Of a stretch of DNA of 10,623 nucleotides, positions 1,871 to 10,623 are shown piece after piece. The stretch comes from an uncultured Collinsella sp. (GTDB lineage: Bacteria > Actinomycetota > Coriobacteriia > Coriobacteriales > Coriobacteriaceae). Both the position numbers and the translations under genes were made by a program. The stretch lies in contig CAJJZO010000048.1 in the NCBI GenBank assembly GCA_905197585.1, positions 1 through 10,623 on the forward strand, in the 5' to 3' direction. The stretch's first letter is position 1. Each line of letters begins with the position of its first letter. Under the pieces are notes generated by a model. It was not told where the DNA came from. It made no database searches and worked only from the letters and a program-made list of their open reading frames with translations.

Positions 1871-1900
1871 TTGGCTAGACGCGTTGCTTTGGGGTACCAT
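1871..1900 (+). promoter_or_regulatory. Candidate promoter of the cation ATPase
   Basis: TTGGCT (1871-1876) and TACCAT (1895-1900) are separated by 18 bp. They match the -35 and -10 consensus at three and four of six positions. Transcription would begin near 1907, giving a leader of about 110 nt that contains the whole two-state structure described at 1918-2011. The boxes are weak, so the position of the leader supports the call as much as the hexamers do. Confidence 0.35.
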
Positions 1901-1917
1901 AGCTCCACTATCAACTG

Positions 1918-2018
1918 CCGCTCAGCACGGCAGCCTTGATGAGCCCTTGCCCTTCTCCTGGGAATTATGATCGGGCATCAATCTGCTGAGTGGCCCGAAT
2001 CCCAGGAGGGGACTCTAT
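1918..2018 (+). promoter_or_regulatory. Structured leader with two exclusive folds, one hiding the RBS
   Basis: Fold A: CCGCTCAGCA (1918-1927) pairs with TGCTGAGTGG (1984-1993), 10 bp with one G-U. Nested inside, TTGAT (1936-1940) pairs with ATCAA (1977-1981), and GCCC (1943-1946) with GGGC (1973-1976). This leaves the Shine-Dalgarno region outside the closed domain. Fold B: CTCCTGGG (1955-1962) pairs perfectly with CCCAGGAG (2001-2008), which carries the Shine-Dalgarno sequence. The pairing extends by G-U and C-G pairs to about 1952/2011. Inside it, TCGGGC (1971-1976) pairs with GCCCGA (1993-1998). The two folds share 1973-1976 and 1993, so they compete. This is the layout of a translational riboswitch or RNA switch. 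I do not recognise the M-box, yybP-ykoY or NiCo consensus here, so the ligand is unknown. Confidence 0.5.
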
Positions 2019-4706: not shown

Positions 4707-4897
4707 AGGCTATCCTTCCCACCGGCCCGACCGCCTGCGGGGTTCCCACGGGCACGCCCGCGCCGCTTGGCGGGTGCGGGATGTGCCCTGGGTAAACCCC
4801 TCCCGGCGGGGGGGCCTTCGGATAACCTCTCAGGACCATAAGCTGAGGGAAAGTTTGTGAGCTGGTCGGGCTTTGCCCGGCCAGCTCTTTTTGTTTT
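4707..4897 (+). ncRNA. Candidate structured RNA between the ATPase and rsgA
   Basis: No gene is seen in 4701-4940, but the RNA folds strongly. Stacked helices form one rod: AGGcTATCC (4707-4715) with GGATAaCCT (4820-4828, one mismatch); GGCCC (4724-4728) with GGGCC (4812-4816); CCGCC (4731-4735) with GGCGG (4805-4809); GGGGTTCCCA (4739-4748) with TGGG and AACCCC (4789-4800, bulge of two); GGGCAC (4750-4755) with GTGCCC (4783-4788); CCCGC (4757-4761) with GCGGG (4776-4780). A small hairpin, CTCAG (4831 region) with CTGAG, follows, and then the strong terminator. It could be a free small RNA, a 3' UTR structure of the ATPase message, an attenuator of rsgA, or a dispersed palindromic repeat. I do not see the SRP RNA, tmRNA or RNase P hallmarks. 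6S RNA is rod-like too, but I cannot match it by sequence. Confidence 0.45.
4859..4897 (+). terminator. Strong intrinsic terminator upstream of rsgA
   Basis: The arms GAGCTGGTCGGGC (4859-4871) and GCCCGGCCAGCTC (4875-4887) form a 13-bp stem with one G-U pair and a TTT loop. TTTTTGTTTT (4888-4897) follows. This is a textbook rho-independent terminator, about 160 nt after the ATPase stop codon. It ends either the ATPase message or the structured RNA before it. It also makes the in-frame ATG at 4857 an unlikely start for rsgA. Confidence 0.93.
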
Positions 4898-4902
4898 AAA
4901 AT
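4873..4902 (+). promoter_or_regulatory. Candidate rsgA promoter overlapping the terminator
   Basis: TTGCCC (4873-4878) and TAAAAT (4897-4902) are 18 bp apart and match the -35 and -10 consensus at four and five of six positions. The -35 lies in the loop and 3' arm of the terminator, and the -10 at the end of its T tract. Transcription would begin near 4909, leaving about 30 nt before the GTG start of rsgA. This fits a gene insulated from upstream transcription. Confidence 0.4.
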
Positions 4903-4940
4903 ACCTGCTCAGTTGTGTGGTTTTGTGCTGGGAGGCGCTT

Positions 4941-6125
4941 GTGGGCAAGGCTAAGGCTAAGGCGAAGAAAAAGACGACGGGGGCGCGGGCTAAGCGCGAT
5001 CGTCGTCGGAAGCTCGCGACCGAAGCCCCTGCATCTGCTGAGGAGTTGCTGGCAAGCGTGCCGGGGCTTGACGCGTTGCAGGATGTTCCGGCGTTCGATG
5101 ACCTGCCGGTCGATGCGGCTCAGCAGGCTGCATTTGACGACTTTTGCGCACAGGCTGAGGAACCCGAGCAGATGCAGCTCGGTGCCGTGGTGCGCCTGGA
5201 CCGCGGATTTCCGCTGGTGGCAACTGCCGACGACACGTTTCGTGCCGAGCATGCCGTAGGGTTTGCCAAGTCGCGTGGCGAGGACGAGGTCTTGCTGCCC
5301 GCTGTGGGCGACCGCGTGGCGGTGCGTCGTGCGCCCGGGCACAACATGGGCGTGATCGAGTGCGTACTGCCGCGCCGTACGAGCTTTGAACGTTGGCGCG
5401 GCCGTGCCCGCGGAGAGCGCCAGGTGCTCTGCTCCAACGTGGATAGCGTGCTGATCGTGCAGGCGCTCGGCGCCGGCGAGGTACTGCTCGACCGCGTGGC
5501 GCGCTCGCTGGTGTTGGCACTCGACTGCGATGCCGAGCCGGTGGTGGTACTCACCAAGGCCGACCGCTGCGACGCCGATGAGCTCGAGCGCGATCTGGAC
5601 CGCGCGCGCCACCTGGTGGGTCCGGACGTGCGCGTGATCGGGACGTCCTCTGCCGAGGGCCGCGGCCTGGACGAGGTCCGTTCCTGCGTGCCTGCTGGGA
5701 GCTGCGCCATGATTCTGGGCGAGTCGGGTGCCGGCAAGTCGACGCTGCTCAATGCACTGCTGGGCCACGATACGTTGGCGACCGGCGGTGTGCGCGAACG
5801 CGACGATCAGGGCCGTCACACTACCGTCGCGCGCGTGATGGTGGCGCTGCCGGGCGACGCCGGCGTGATCGCCGATGCCCCGGGCCTGCGCAGCCTACCG
5901 CTCGTGGGTCACGAGCGGGGTCTGGCGCGCGCCTTCCCCGAGATTGTCGAGGCATCGCGCGCGTGCCGGTTTGGCGATTGCACACATACCCATGAGCCGG
6001 GTTGCGCCGTTCGCGAGGCCGAGGACGCCGGGCAGATCGACGGCCTGCGTCTGGAAACGTTCCAAAACCTGGCGTCATCCATGCGCGTGAGCGCTCAAAT
6101 GCTCGATCCCGATGTCCATTTGTAA
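4941..6125 (+). CDS. rsgA: Ribosome small-subunit-dependent GTPase RsgA
   Basis: RsgA (YjeQ) is a cytoplasmic GTPase that acts in late maturation of the 30S ribosomal subunit. The GTG at 4941 is chosen because GGGAGG sits 5 nt upstream and because the in-frame ATG at 4857 would translate through the terminator. This gives 394 residues, longer than the roughly 300-350 usual in the family. An OB-fold domain spans about 78-155. The GTPase motifs come in circularly permuted order: G4 TKAD (205-208), G5 around TSSAEG, G1 GESGAGKST (260-268), G3 DAPG (312-315). A zinc-binding module C342-x4-C347-x-H349-x5-C355 completes the family signature. The extra length is at the N terminus: a very basic stretch (about 2-24, Lys/Arg-rich) and then an acidic one (about 29-75). 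The basic part may contact rRNA; this is inference. Confidence 0.96.
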   Translation: MGKAKAKAKKKTTGARAKRDRRRKLATEAPASAEELLASVPGLDALQDVPAFDDLPVDAAQQAAFDDFCAQAEEPEQMQLGAVVRLDRGFPLVATADDTFRAEHAVGFAKSRGEDEVLLPAVGDRVAVRRAPGHNMGVIECVLPRRTSFERWRGRARGERQVLCSNVDSVLIVQALGAGEVLLDRVARSLVLALDCDAEPVVVLTKADRCDADELERDLDRARHLVGPDVRVIGTSSAEGRGLDEVRSCVPAGSCAMILGESGAGKSTLLNALLGHDTLATGGVRERDDQGRHTTVARVMVALPGDAGVIADAPGLRSLPLVGHERGLARAFPEIVEASRACRFGDCTHTHEPGCAVREAEDAGQIDGLRLETFQNLASSMRVSAQMLDPDVHL

Positions 6126-6297: not shown

Positions 6298-6377
6298 GAT
6301 TGCGCCGCTTTGCACTCTGACCGCCCAGACAATGGTGGTACGGGCATTCGCCCGGCACTGCCATGAGAGGAGCGGCC

Positions 6378-7037
6378 GTGAACAAGAGCAAGCGCATCGC
6401 CATCAGTCTGGTCGCAGGCGTGCTCGCTGCTCTGCTCTGCATGGTTTACGGCTCGTCGATCCGCTCGCAAGCCGAACAGGTCCAGGCTGAGACCTTGGCC
6501 AAGTACGGGGGCGATCGCGTCGAGGTATGCGTTGCGGCGCGCGATATCGATGTGGGCGAGACCCTCGATGAGACCAATGTCATAACCCAGGAATGGCTGA
6601 CGAGCCTGCTGCCGCGTGACGCGGCGACCGAGCTGCGCCAGGTGCGCGGCGACGTGACGACTTCGCGTATTCCCAAAAACGCCGTGATCTGCAATGTCTA
6701 CACCAAGGCCGAGAGCCACAAGCTCGAGGTGCCTAAGGGCAAGGTCGCCATTTCGGTGGCGGTCGATGCCGAGCACTCGGTCGGCGGCGCCACGGGCGTG
6801 GGCAGCTACGTGGATGTGTATGTGCAAAAAGACGGCGTAACCGATCGGCTGTGCGGCGCGTACGTGATCGATACCAGTGAGGATTCCGGTGCCACGCGCG
6901 AGGGCAAGATCGAATGGGTGACGCTGGCGGCTGACCCCGAAGACGTCAAGGAACTGCTGGGCGCCTCGGGCAAGGGAACGGTCAGCTTGACGATTCCCGC
7001 CACGGCGCGCGGCAGAAAGAGCGGAGGCGACGAGTGA
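6378..7037 (+). CDS. cpaB: Flp/Tad pilus assembly protein CpaB (SAF domain)
   Basis: CpaB/RcpC proteins are membrane-anchored accessory factors of Tad pilus machines. In Gram-negative bacteria they work with the secretin; in single-membrane bacteria the role is less clear. GTG at 6378 is chosen because GAGAGGAG (6365-6372) lies 5 nt upstream. An in-frame ATG at 6363 overlaps that Shine-Dalgarno sequence and is unlikely. The 219-residue product has one N-terminal membrane segment (about 6-25) after a short basic cytoplasmic end. A SAF domain follows (about 48-107, starting VEVCVAARDIDVGETLDETN), and then a small RcpC-like C-terminal region (about 115-210). It is shorter than many CpaB proteins. 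The LLC in the membrane segment is not a proper lipobox. It is the first gene of the operon and its stop overlaps the next start. Confidence 0.85.
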   Translation: MNKSKRIAISLVAGVLAALLCMVYGSSIRSQAEQVQAETLAKYGGDRVEVCVAARDIDVGETLDETNVITQEWLTSLLPRDAATELRQVRGDVTTSRIPKNAVICNVYTKAESHKLEVPKGKVAISVAVDAEHSVGGATGVGSYVDVYVQKDGVTDRLCGAYVIDTSEDSGATREGKIEWVTLAADPEDVKELLGASGKGTVSLTIPATARGRKSGGDE

Positions 7038-8686
7038 TGAAGGCGATCTGGCTTGCGTGCTGCGCGTGCGGCGATTACGGGCTGTTGCAGCGGGAAGTCG
7101 AGGGCCGTGATGCGGGTGCACAGGTGCTTCGCGTGGGTGACCTGGACGGGCTGGTTTCCACGGCGCGGGCGTTTCCGTCGCGCCGCGGGGCTGCCATCAT
7201 CGCGGCGTCTCTGTTTGATACCGAAGATGTGCGCAAGACTGTTGCGCGCCTGACGGCCGAAGGCCGCGTGAGTCGCGTGGTCGTGTTGATAGAAGCGCTC
7301 GATCCGTCGGATATCGAGGGGCTGTTTCGCGCGGGGGCGACCGAGGTCATCGCTGCGCACAGTATATGCGGCAACGGGCGTGCGGGCGAGGGAGCGGTTG
7401 ATTCCGATCGGCGCATGACGATTGAGCCCGATGCTTTTGTTGATAGGGAACCCGGGGCGCCTCGCGCTACAAGAGGCCCGCGTGTTGATGATTATGGAAA
7501 AGCGGAAGCCGAGCATGGTCGGCGCCCCCGGAACCCCCTTGTATACGATGACGCTGGAGGGCCGGCACAGCATGCTGGCGACTCCCCGGCTGTAGATATG
7601 GGATACGTGTACGGCGTGAATTTGGCGGATGAACTGGACGAAGTTGAGGGCTTTGCCGGGTGCGGCGAGTTGTCGCCGATGCAGCATGAGCAGATTGCAC
7701 AGAACGAGCCTGCCTCGCAGACCGAACAAGCTGCCATGCCGGCTTGGACGCAGCGTGTGGTTGCGACGGGGGAGACGGGGACGCTGTCACCGACGCCCGC
7801 ACCGCCGCCTCCGATGCCGCCGGCAGACGCCGCCGCTCCGCCGCATCGAGCTCCGGTCATCTGCGCCATTTCGGGTTCGGGCGGTTGCGGCAAGTCGACG
7901 ATTGTTGCCACCATGGCACACACATCGTCGCTGTTGGGCTTGCGTGCCGCCGTGCTCGACCTGGACCTGATGTTTGGAAACCTTTACGACTTGTTAGGCG
8001 TCGATGCTCCGCGCGATATAGCGGCACTTATCGAGCCGTCGGCGGCGGGCGCGCTTACCGAGCCGGATATCGTAGCCGCATCGATGCGCGTGGCGCCGGG
8101 CGTTACGCTCTGGGGTCCCGTCGCAGCGCCCGAGCAAGCCGAGCTCATGGCGCGTCCGGTGGAGCTACTGCTTGATGTTCTGCGTCGCGAATCCGACGTG
8201 GTCTTTATCGATACCTCGGTCTTTTGGGGCGACGCCGTGGCGGCTGCGGTGGCGGCGAGCGACCGTTGCCTGGTCGTTGGCGATGCGGCGGTGTCGTCCG
8301 CGACATCGGCGTCGCGCGTCATTGAACTGGCAAGTCGAGTAGGTGTGCCGCGCACGCGCATGAGCGCCGTGTTCAACCGGTTCGGTGCGCGCGGGGCAGA
8401 CGAGGATGTTGCCATGCGCTTTGAGATTGCCTGTGCGTTGAGCTCCAAGATTCGTATCGCCGATGGCGGACAGGATCTCGCCGCGCTCATGGCGTTTGGG
8501 CGCGCTGACGAGGCAGTGGGGCAGACCAGCGCTTTTGCGACCAGCGTGCGCGAGGCCACGCGCGAGATGCTCGTGGAACTGGGGTGCGCCGTCGGCCCTT
8601 GGAGCGATATGGTCGCCGACCGTGCAACACGCACCGAACGCCCGCGTATTCGCCTTCCCTGGTCGCGCGAGGGTGATCAGCGATGA
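7034..8686 (+). CDS. cpaE: Tad pilus localisation ATPase CpaE/TadZ
   Basis: CpaE/TadZ belongs to the MinD/ParA superfamily and helps place the Tad machine at its site in the cell. Translation can begin at GTG 7034 (GGAGG at 7023-7027, 6 nt away, 4-nt overlap with the cpaB stop) or at the adjacent ATG 7037. From GTG it has 550 residues. Residues 1-112 look like the atypical receiver domain of the family. About 113-272 is a poorly conserved linker rich in charged residues, ending in a proline-rich stretch near 254-276. The ATPase domain has Walker A GSGGCGKST (281-289, K287), then a DLDLMFGN segment typical of CpaE, and a Walker B-like VVFIDT. The deviant-Walker signature lysine is replaced by S282. 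The long linker makes the protein larger than most homologues. A tadZ label would be equally valid. Confidence 0.85.
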   Translation: MMKAIWLACCACGDYGLLQREVEGRDAGAQVLRVGDLDGLVSTARAFPSRRGAAIIAASLFDTEDVRKTVARLTAEGRVSRVVVLIEALDPSDIEGLFRAGATEVIAAHSICGNGRAGEGAVDSDRRMTIEPDAFVDREPGAPRATRGPRVDDYGKAEAEHGRRPRNPLVYDDAGGPAQHAGDSPAVDMGYVYGVNLADELDEVEGFAGCGELSPMQHEQIAQNEPASQTEQAAMPAWTQRVVATGETGTLSPTPAPPPPMPPADAAAPPHRAPVICAISGSGGCGKSTIVATMAHTSSLLGLRAAVLDLDLMFGNLYDLLGVDAPRDIAALIEPSAAGALTEPDIVAASMRVAPGVTLWGPVAAPEQAELMARPVELLLDVLRRESDVVFIDTSVFWGDAVAAAVAASDRCLVVGDAAVSSATSASRVIELASRVGVPRTRMSAVFNRFGARGADEDVAMRFEIACALSSKIRIADGGQDLAALMAFGRADEAVGQTSAFATSVREATREMLVELGCAVGPWSDMVADRATRTERPRIRLPWSREGDQR

Positions 8687-10011
8687 GCCTGCAAACGAGG
8701 ATTAAGGCTGCCGGCGCTGCAGCGACGGCAGCGCCTGTAGATGCAGGGCGCCGCCGCGCGGTGAAACGACGCACCAAGCGCGCCGTAATGGACCGCATGG
8801 GTTACGACGAAGTGGCGCGTATCAGCGCCTATATCGACCCGGCGCTTGCCCGCTCGGAATTGCGTCCCGCGGTGGAGGCGGCGCTCAATGTTGAGGAGCC
8901 GACCGATCTCGCGACGTCCGAACGCGAGACCATCATCGACGAGATTTTGGATGACGTGGTGGGCCTGGGGCCGTTGCAGCCGCTCATCGAGGACGACACC
9001 GTTACCGAGATCATGATCAACGGCTGCCGCTCGGCTTTCTTTGAACGCGGCGGCGTTTTGTATCCCATCGAGCACGCGTTTGAGGACGACGAACAGATCC
9101 GTGTGCTAATCGACCGCATCATCTCGCCACTTGGCCGCCGTATCGACGAGCGCAGCCCCATTGTCAACGCCCGCCTCAAAACGGGCTATCGCGTCAACGC
9201 GGTGATTCCGCCTGTGGCGATTGACGGACCGATTCTCACCATCCGAAAGTTCTCGGACCGTATCTGCTCGCTGGACGAGCTCGTGGGGTTGGGATCGCTG
9301 CCGCTTTGGTATGCGCAGCTGCTGTCGTGCGCGGTGTCGCTGCGACAGGACCTGGCGGTTGCGGGAGGCACGGGATCTGGTAAGACCACCCTGCTCAACG
9401 CGTTGTCATGCGAGATTTCCACCGGCGAGCGCATCGTGACGATCGAGGACTCTGCCGAACTCAAGTTTGCGCATCATCCGCACGTGGTGCGTCTAGAGGC
9501 GCGCGAGGCTTCAATTGAGGGTGAGGGCGCGGTGACGATCCGCGACCTGGTAACTAATGCCCTGCGCATGCGCCCCGACCGCATCGTGGTGGGCGAGGTG
9601 CGCGGTGCCGAGTGCTGCGACATGTTGCAGGCCATGAACACGGGCCACGACGGGTCGCTCACCACGCTTCATGCGGGTTCCGAGCAGGAGACCGTGGTGC
9701 GTCTGACGTTGCTTGCACGTTATGGCATCGATCTGCCGAGCGAGCTCATCGAGGAGCAGATTGCCATGGCGCTTGACGGCATCGTGATGTCCGAGCGTCA
9801 TGCGGACGGCAGGCGTTTCGTGTCCTCCTATTCGGGGGTGCGACGCGGCGCGTCGGGCGGCGTGGAGCTTGAGCGCTACGTGACGTTCGATGCCGCCGAG
9901 CGCACCTGGACGCTCGATCGCGAGCCTCCGTTTATCGCGGAGGGCCTGCGCTCGGGAACGCTCACACAAGAGGAGGTGGACGAATGGAGATCGTTGTGCC
10001 CCTCGTCGTAG
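8683..10011 (+). CDS. cpaF: Tad pilus motor ATPase CpaF/TadA
   Basis: This cytoplasmic hexameric secretion ATPase of the type II/IV family powers assembly, and in some species retraction, of the Tad pilus. It has 442 residues. The N-terminal region contains the CpaF pattern GLGPLQPL ... [11 protein letters not shown] (near 88-110) and [20 protein letters not shown]. The catalytic core has Walker [10 protein letters not shown] (228-236, K234), an Asp box IEDSAEL (254-260, E255) and a combined Walker B/His box starting GEVRGAE (304-310), with H322 and H330 (TTLHA). All key residues look intact. The start overlaps the cpaE stop in an ATGA arrangement. A GGTGATC stretch (8672-8678) before the start resembles the 16S rRNA-complementary sequence. 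The first about 40 residues are Ala/Arg-rich and family-variable. Confidence 0.95.
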
Positions 10012-10623
10012 GGGGCTTGACAGGGCTTTCTGCCGCGGTGGCGTGCGGGGCGGAGCCTCGTGTGTCGCGCGTGCCGCCGGCGGAACTGGTCAGCCATGCG
10101 CTTGAGTCGGTTGCCGAGAGGCTGCCGCGCGAGTTGGTAGAAAACGACCTGCTAAAAAAGATTACCCGCTCCTGGGCGGCGCTGGTTCCAGCACATCGCC
10201 TTGGCCTTGTTATCGAGGATGACGAGGCGCGCCTGGCATGCTTGCTGCTATCGAGTGGTGTCTGCGGCATTGCCCTGACTGTCGTATCGCTGTCGCCCAT
10301 CGGCTTTGTCCTGGGGCTGCTCGCACCGTTTGGCGTAGGCGCCGCTCGCGACACCTTCGACCGTCGCCGCGAGCAACACGATGTGGAAGAAGCCATGCCC
10401 GAGGCCTTTACGGCACTCTCTATGTCGCTCGCCTCGGGTCATTCGCTGGCCCAGGGCATGAGGTTTGTGGGAACTCACGCGCAAGAGCCAGTGCATACCG
10501 AGTTTTTGCGCGTGGCGACGGCGATCGACTGCGGCGTCTCGGCGACTGATGCGTTGTATGACCTACTCGACCGTATCGATGCCCCCGGCCTTTCGCTTGT
10601 CACCTTGGCGCTCAAGCTGTCGC
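9984..10623 (+). CDS. tadB: Tad pilus platform protein TadB (partial, runs off the end)
   Basis: The ATG at 9984 has AGGAGG (9971-9976) 7 nt upstream. The frame stays open to the window edge, giving 213 residues. It overlaps the end of cpaF by 28 nt. A hydrophobic N-terminal segment (about 3-22) is followed by a soluble stretch. Two hydrophobic segments close together (about 84-120) come next. From about residue 137 a T2SSF (GspF-like) domain begins, with an EAMPEAFTAL ... LASGHSLAQGM pattern. TadB and TadC together form the membrane platform on which the CpaF motor acts. The gene order cpaB-cpaE-cpaF-tadB supports the call. The 3' part, including the last membrane segments, lies outside the window. 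Confidence 0.85.
   Translation, partial: MEIVVPLVVGGLTGLSAAVACGAEPRVSRVPPAELVSHALESVAERLPRELVENDLLKKITRSWAALVPAHRLGLVIEDDEARLACLLLSSGVCGIALTVVSLSPIGFVLGLLAPFGVGAARDTFDRRREQHDVEEAMPEAFTALSMSLASGHSLAQGMRFVGTHAQEPVHTEFLRVATAIDCGVSATDALYDLLDRIDAPGLSLVTLALKLS

Follow-up and report, generated by a model that had tools for sequence, protein, structure and literature searches.

The NiCo (czcD) riboswitch is an ion sensor linked to ion-related genes. The same can be said of the Na+-I (DUF1646) riboswitch (PMC9337991). The yybP-ykoY element (RF00080), a cis-regulatory RNA of metal homeostasis genes, is described in three papers as an ON switch (PMC9190785), as translational (PMC11647493) and as a four-way junction (PMC6754395). 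In Weinberg et al. (2010, PMC2864571), the msiK motif is a long hairpin with bulges that draws the ribosome binding site into its basal pairing and stands before an ABC transporter ATPase gene, and Collinsella-1, from Actinobacteria and the human gut, is rated 'n' (probably not) for cis-regulation. A collection of human-microbiome candidate RNAs (Fremin and Bhatt 2021, PMC8040213) holds one in Collinsella and 508 directly upstream of genes; the words ATPase and calcium are absent from its main text, and an anonymous match among its supplementary models is possible.

Here we compare these systems with a leader in a stretch of 10,623 nucleotides from an uncultured Collinsella sp. (contig CAJJZO010000048.1), hereafter the window, where it precedes the gene of a cation-pumping ATPase. 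A search of Rfam 15 returned no matches at gathering cut-offs in the whole window and none up to E 10 in 1780-2060, which agrees with an earlier sequence-only reading of this DNA that had recognised no known riboswitch class. The lack of an Rfam match in window or leader sets it apart from NiCo, Na+-I and Collinsella-1, and its conserved letters presumably differ from those of NiCo and Na+-I as well. In contrast to msiK, which serves an ABC ATPase, the leader serves a P-type ATPase, again with no Rfam match. In our model it is a single stacked hairpin interrupted by an internal loop, unlike the four-way junction of yybP-ykoY, and RF00080 matched neither the window nor, with strict filters, any of 59 family genomes (four of 14 control genomes were positive). 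A search of titles and abstract openings in an open PMC library found nothing about the leader, and the same library gave no paper on a calcium riboswitch. To our knowledge, the sensing of intracellular Ca2+ by bacteria is poorly known.

Results

A leader with two base-sharing folds

The sequence-only reading had proposed two helix sets that draw on the same bases. All of the claimed pairs that were checked are canonical at their coordinates, and P1 proved one pair longer on the outside than had been given (Table 1). The upstream set consists of P1 (1917-1927/1984-1994), 1936-1941/1976-1981 and 1944-1946/1973-1975. In the set that hides the Shine-Dalgarno sequence (SD), an anti-SD helix of 11 bp with two G-U pairs (1952-1962/2001-2011) is joined by 1971-1976/1993-1998. 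Positions 1952, 1960-1962, 1973-1976 and 1993-1994 are common to both, and the sets are mutually exclusive, as had been claimed.

The upstream domain, the aptamer-type fold of the pump leader, is formed by P1, P2 and P3 around a near-invariant core. It stacks an 11 bp P1, a 6 bp P2, an AG bulge, P2b (CCC/GGG), an asymmetric internal loop (UUG/AAUUAnnAUC) and the P3 hairpin. The loop had been thought to expose CTCCTGGG; in the conserved fold UUCUCCU is indeed exposed, but the GGG of CTCCTGGG forms part of the P3 stem (1950-1952/1960-1962), and the exposed part is therefore shorter than the whole. The linker reads GGCAG or GGCAAC in 69 of 126 leaders, and its hairpin with the P1 5' strand has an energy of -6.32 against -5.56 (sd 0.17) for shuffled versions, none of 100 being as good; GGCAG could thereby pair with the P1 5' strand in the putative SD-hidden state.

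In the window the SD-hidden fold has an energy of -44.4 kcal/mol and the aptamer fold -37.1 kcal/mol, and energy alone prefers the former. Single-sequence folding is mildly unusual (z -2.14, with 7 of 200 shuffles folding as well). The fold of a lone sequence is weak evidence; conservation and covariation place the leader far beyond chance.

Table 1. Positions of the leader features and the pump gene within the window.
Feature	Position	Strand	Remarks
-10-like hexamer TACCAT	1895..1900	+	similar distance to P1 in 87 of 141 distinct upstream regions
P1 5' strand	1917..1927	+	pairs 1984-1994; all 11 pairs vary on both sides among 108 leaders
Linker CGGCAGCC	1928..1935	+	alternative partner: P1 5' strand
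P2 5' strand UUGAUG	1936..1941	+	pairs 1976-1981
Core 5' side: CCC (P2b, pairs 1973-1975) and UUG of internal loop	1944..1949	+	
P3 hairpin CCC-UUCUCCU-GGG	1950..1962	+	anti-Shine-Dalgarno arm made up of loop and 3' strand
Core 3' side AAUUAUGAUC and GGG	1963..1975	+	near-invariant
P2 3' strand CAUCAA	1976..1981	+	covariation
P1 3' strand	1984..1994	+	covariation
GCCCGA	1993..1998	+	pairs core 1971-1976 in SD-hidden fold
CCC-AGGAGG-GG, Shine-Dalgarno and flanks	2001..2011	+	pairs 1952-1962 in SD-hidden fold
Type II P-type ATPase, Ca2+-pump type, 893 aa	2019..4700	+	solved relatives, NCBIfam

Conservation and phyletic spread

Alignment of the regions upstream of ATPase orthologues gave a strong motif, GCCCUUGCCC-loop-GGG(G)AAUUAnnAUCGGG. 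An exact search for it in a public genome set, which also constitutes our coverage of genomes outside the phylum, found at least 120 stretches. Among the matches listed, the records that name a taxon lead to Coriobacteriia (Collinsella, Olsenella, Atopobium, Atopobiaceae and so on). Six of seven less familiar genera among these matches could be placed, all six in Coriobacteriales, and the remaining records listed are three labelled just 'actinobacterium' and one 'bacterium OL-1'. Within the order the exact motif occurs in 166 of 395 genomes, with none for a reversed-pattern control in the rows listed. A covariance model was built from 108 distinct leaders (113 distinct, 108 once trimmed, identical ones being collapsed). 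It matched 205 of the 395 genomes at E <=1, and in the Coriobacteriales families f1 and f5 it matched 188 of 205 genomes at E <=1e-4. Judging from the named records, f1 and f5 correspond roughly to Coriobacteriaceae and Atopobiaceae. Seventeen genomes of f2, f4 and f6 at E 0.0015-0.87 were taken as chance matches. A sample of 396 genomes from the phylum held 23 with strong matches, all in f1 or f5, and four others at about 20 bits; these four, from elsewhere in the phylum (19.9-20.8 bits), were likewise taken as chance.

Our main alignment, A1, comprises leaders picked by the exact core motif, and the invariance of the motif letters in it is therefore by construction. Independent of this choice are 17 of 18 divergent leaders that the exact motif missed (L224, the other one, does match it), and the CCC and G of the core 5' side are invariant in all 18. 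Their P3 takes other forms, CCUC/GAGG in L211, CUCCGCG/CGCGGGG in L212 and a shorter GCC-UUCCU-GG in L214 and L217-L223, and pairing is still possible in each despite the altered length and sequence. The leader is almost certainly a real, strongly conserved cis-regulatory RNA.

Covariation of the helices

The helices covary upstream of orthologous ATPase genes, both in A1 and on a tree of coding sequences. In A1, 18 of 24 pairs changed on both sides (shuffle mean 15.3, 6 of 500 as high), two-sided change occurred in 240 cells against 101.6 in shuffles (none of 500 as high), and 83.9% of cells pair against 76.1% in shuffles. The covariation score was 0.288, compared with 0.068-0.091 for slid partners. 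For the outermost three pairs of P1, 55.5% of A1 cells are canonical; P2b and three of the four P3 pairs are invariant in A1, and covariation says nothing about these. Two further tests were weak. RNAalifold on the MAFFT alignment A1 predicted 10 pairs, in P2, P2b and P3 alone, and did not predict P1, and an R-scape-like G-test of all pairs in the MAFFT alignment, run against a simulated null, gave one of 3741 pairs at E <0.05, namely 1940-1977 within P2.

Because the P1-P2 linker is not of constant length in A1, P1 is misplaced in some rows, and we therefore retested the helices with a gapless, core-anchored alignment. The tree was derived from 405 nt of downstream coding sequence for 158 leaders, no two of which share that sequence. 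We counted compensatory double changes along single branches as the mean of five parsimony resolutions, and ten slid registers served as controls, those with negative offsets holding 12-16 pairs instead of 17. P1 and P2 together had 76.6 compensatory double changes against 8.8-22.4 in the slid registers (P1 alone 57.2 against 7.6-19.8, P2 alone 19.4 against 0-3.6), and 77% of their cells were canonical against 30-46%. Non-compensatory double changes in P1 and P2 numbered 73.4 (60.8-103.2 slid), a count near that of the compensatory ones. A conserved 5'-leader domain backed by covariation, as is found in riboswitches, is thus present here, the RNAalifold and G-test results being weaker.

The pump gene and its association with the leader

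The nearest solved relatives of the ATPase are Ca2+ pumps. The closest are the calcium-transporting ATPases 6zhf (E 2.2e-203) and lmo0841 in 9euq (E 5e-203), followed by type 2C member 1 and SERCA. We take lmo0841 to be the Listeria pump LMCA1. The NCBIfam cut-offs of named Ca2+ subtypes are not reached, with 634.5 against 798.3 bits for PMR1-type TIGR01522, the top NCBIfam match, and 612.7 against 703.4 bits for TIGR01116. In the alignment the ATPase has SANLAEV and VNLVTD where lmo0841 has AGNLGAI and INLVND, segments that presumably hold cation-site residues in SERCA. The window resembles Collinsella, and the nearest genome in the collection shares 55% of its sampled words. Fourteen of the 30 matches with loci given are 98-99% identical to the ATPase of the window, and loci on named Collinsella aerofaciens contigs match it at 98-99%.

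The link between RNA and gene was counted on the 153 places fetched by motif (L031-L180, with repeats of some species), because L001-L030 had been fetched via the ATPase. In 151 of them the motif sits 31-70 nt upstream of the start region of the same ATPase; the other two, L053 and L121, have 115 and 154 nt of sequence downstream, with no ATPase match seen. Among 23 weak model matches, all 18 at 24.2 bits or above precede the ATPase, and none of the five at 17.9-20.7 bits (three f2, two f1) has one in the available stretch. Seventeen of the 205 f1 and f5 genomes are without a model match. Nine of these keep the pump gene without the RNA (G069-G074, G087, G130, G194), and the motif is absent from all nine upstream regions as read, the gene start in G087 being uncertain. 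In G005 and G192 the pump gene is cut by a contig end. The other six (G068, G138, G140, G178, G185, G158) gave no pump orthologue at 1e-100, G158 having a 41% paralogue only.

Pairing with the Shine-Dalgarno region

The platform was assessed on 131 distinct leader-SD pairs, ten of which lack a strict SD motif, and the control frames, taken from the same loci and preceded by the same SD motif, are open frames of at least 100 codons rather than annotated genes. CCC stands directly before the SD in 80 of 131 leaders compared with 5 of 156 control frames, and the triplet there ends in CC in 107 of 131 compared with 15 of 156. The duplex of arm and SD has a mean of -20.42 kcal/mol against -14.87 kcal/mol for control SDs. 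A leader's own SD beats the mean control in 124 of 131 cases and all 60 sampled controls in 26 of 131; over the SDs of other leaders (-19.41, sd 0.14) the gain is small, and none of 200 shuffles was as good. Matches of -10 kcal/mol or weaker, which we count as poor, occur in at least L041, L071, L136, L139, L151, L219, L227 and L228. L136, L151 and L212 have no CCC-AGGAGG pairing; CCCGAUC precedes the SD instead, complementary to the core GAUCGGG, a contact of the same kind as the window's 1971-1976/1993-1998. Together, the 3' arm of P3 and the core match their own SD region better than other SDs, and the anti-SD side is under selection as well. From sequence alone, the mutually exclusive expression-platform pairing typical of riboswitches is present.

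The sequence-only reading had also suggested that the loop might pair with the SD as a pseudoknot. This is weaker than the strand exchange; what is conserved is the CCC before the SD, which is able to pair with the GGG of P3, and in 68 of 131 leaders the arm is CCUCCUGGGG, with a UCCU tetraloop. On these two grounds the pseudoknot was demoted to a minor option.

Transcript start and level of control

Of 141 distinct upstream regions, 122 contain a TAnnnT hexamer, and in 87 the best one begins 20-24 nt ahead of P1, compared with 11 of 141 when shuffled. A two-box sigma-70 scan found no classical promoter. Given TACCAT in the window (Table 1), the RNA is expected to start near 1907, upstream of P1 and not downstream of 1927, where a start would have counted against the sequence-only reading. 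A terminator search of 1750-2060 found none; translation is therefore the likelier level of control, and a terminator attenuator was put low.

Discussion

The two base-sharing helix sets, their conservation and the CCC before the SD uphold the idea of a two-state leader able to hide a cation pump's ribosome binding site. That it is a riboswitch in the strict sense seems likely to us; that it acts as a translational ON riboswitch for the pumped ion, of a class absent from Rfam 15 and confined so far to the lineage of Coriobacteriales, is a candidate reading we favour with more reserve. In the absence of ligand, the P3 3' arm (and core GAUCGGGC) would capture CCCAGGAGG, the SD would be hidden and the pump would not be made. 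The exported ion in excess, most likely Ca2+ and otherwise Mn2+, would bind the core loop UUG/AAUUAnnAUC, upon which P1 to P3 would form, leaving the SD free and the pump translated. Without ligand the SD-hidden fold is favoured, by about 7 kcal/mol, as an ON switch would require. That difference is a lot for a ligand to make up, unless the folding is under kinetic control.

We infer that the ligand would be the exported ion, Ca2+ likeliest and Mn2+ otherwise. A single pump family lies next to the RNA wherever the neighbour is readable, which would fit ion sensing, and since only one gene family adjoins the RNA the ligand cannot be triangulated. Calcium itself is named tentatively. It is possible, while some way from probable, that the leader represents a Ca2+-sensing riboswitch class, in which a compact aptamer reads cytosolic Ca2+ and switches on translation of a SERCA-like Ca2+ export pump in Collinsella, Olsenella, Atopobium and relatives. 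As far as we know, such a class would be the first. Another signal, be it Mn2+, Mg2+, pH or a small molecule, is a possibility to be taken seriously if not the expected outcome, and by way of Mn2+ it overlaps the explanation we prefer. PMR1-type pumps can carry Mn2+, and since RF00080 was not found, with strict filters, in the 59 family genomes the yybP-ykoY riboswitch does not fill the Mn2+ role here, so that Mn2+ may be the ligand; the closest solved pumps, however, are Ca2+-transporting ATPases.

Explanations other than a riboswitch should also be considered. The core might be the site of an RNA-binding protein that blocks or frees the SD, since a long hairpin near the SD that holds a small internal loop of near-invariant sequence would suit a protein as well. 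The element is also limited to one lineage and one target, as is common among RNA operators for proteins. We nevertheless think such an operator unlikely, as the ATPase is a membrane pump not known to bind RNA, and two competing folds, both under selection, fit a switch better. The SD-hidden fold is stable alone, as could be an RNA thermometer or a simple hairpin that masks the SD and binds no ligand, but neither has any need of a near-invariant internal loop or a competing conserved domain, and we hold this to be very improbable. Still harder to credit is a leader-peptide attenuator. An ATG-to-stop frame of 16 codons (1939-1989) is readable in the window, but the length of the core modulo 3 is 2, 0 and 1 in 91, 22 and 18 of 131 leaders, so no such frame is kept throughout, nor was a terminator found. 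A DNA operator palindrome, whose inverted repeats could bind a repressor, is just as far-fetched, given that compensation extends across some 78 nt, bulges included, and lies downstream of the -10-like hexamer, and that one side pairs with the SD.

On the riboswitch reading, the leader is probably a sensor that lets these bacteria of the gut and mouth make the pump as needed. Its near-invariant core and readable ON/OFF platform make the Ca2+ question directly testable on an RNA of about 115 nt, and the leader would offer a regulatory handle on gut and mouth relatives of Collinsella, Olsenella and Atopobium.

Variant leaders and neighbouring genes

Pump genes of genus g33 carry a different conserved leader, GTGCCATCCAATCGCC...GGGGAACGA...ATCGCCTTCAAATGGCAACG, in L256, L257, L258 and L264 and partly in L255. 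Against Rfam it gave nothing near a cut-off, and a four-sequence fold had 21 pairs, none of them with compensatory changes. The same pump gene may thus have another switch in this genus, unrelated to the first. The upstream region in G194 (L260) reads TCTGCCCTTCATGGGTAAG...TTGGGCC and might be a decayed or reshaped version of the leader. In L215, the leader of G098, the core is remodelled to UCG / ACACGUACGU from UUG / AAUUAnnAUC with the helices kept, possibly a specificity variant.

Some Collinsella have two tandem pump copies, each with its own leader. In Collinsella tanakaei and relatives (L016, L017, L019, L020, L023, L082, L130, L133), the first leader of such a pair is a variant with a AAUUAAGAUC core and a local GCCU-NNNN-AGGC hairpin in place of P2, and the second is standard. 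The two may differ in ligand or threshold.

Elsewhere in the window, a divergently oriented pyruvate kinase gene occupies 117-1577 on the minus strand. Downstream of the pump, on the plus strand, are an RsgA-like GTPase (4857-6125), whose match starts only at residue 150, and the start of a tad/Flp pilus-like cluster (6363-10622), with CpaB above its cut-off and the CpaE-like and TadA-like products below theirs.
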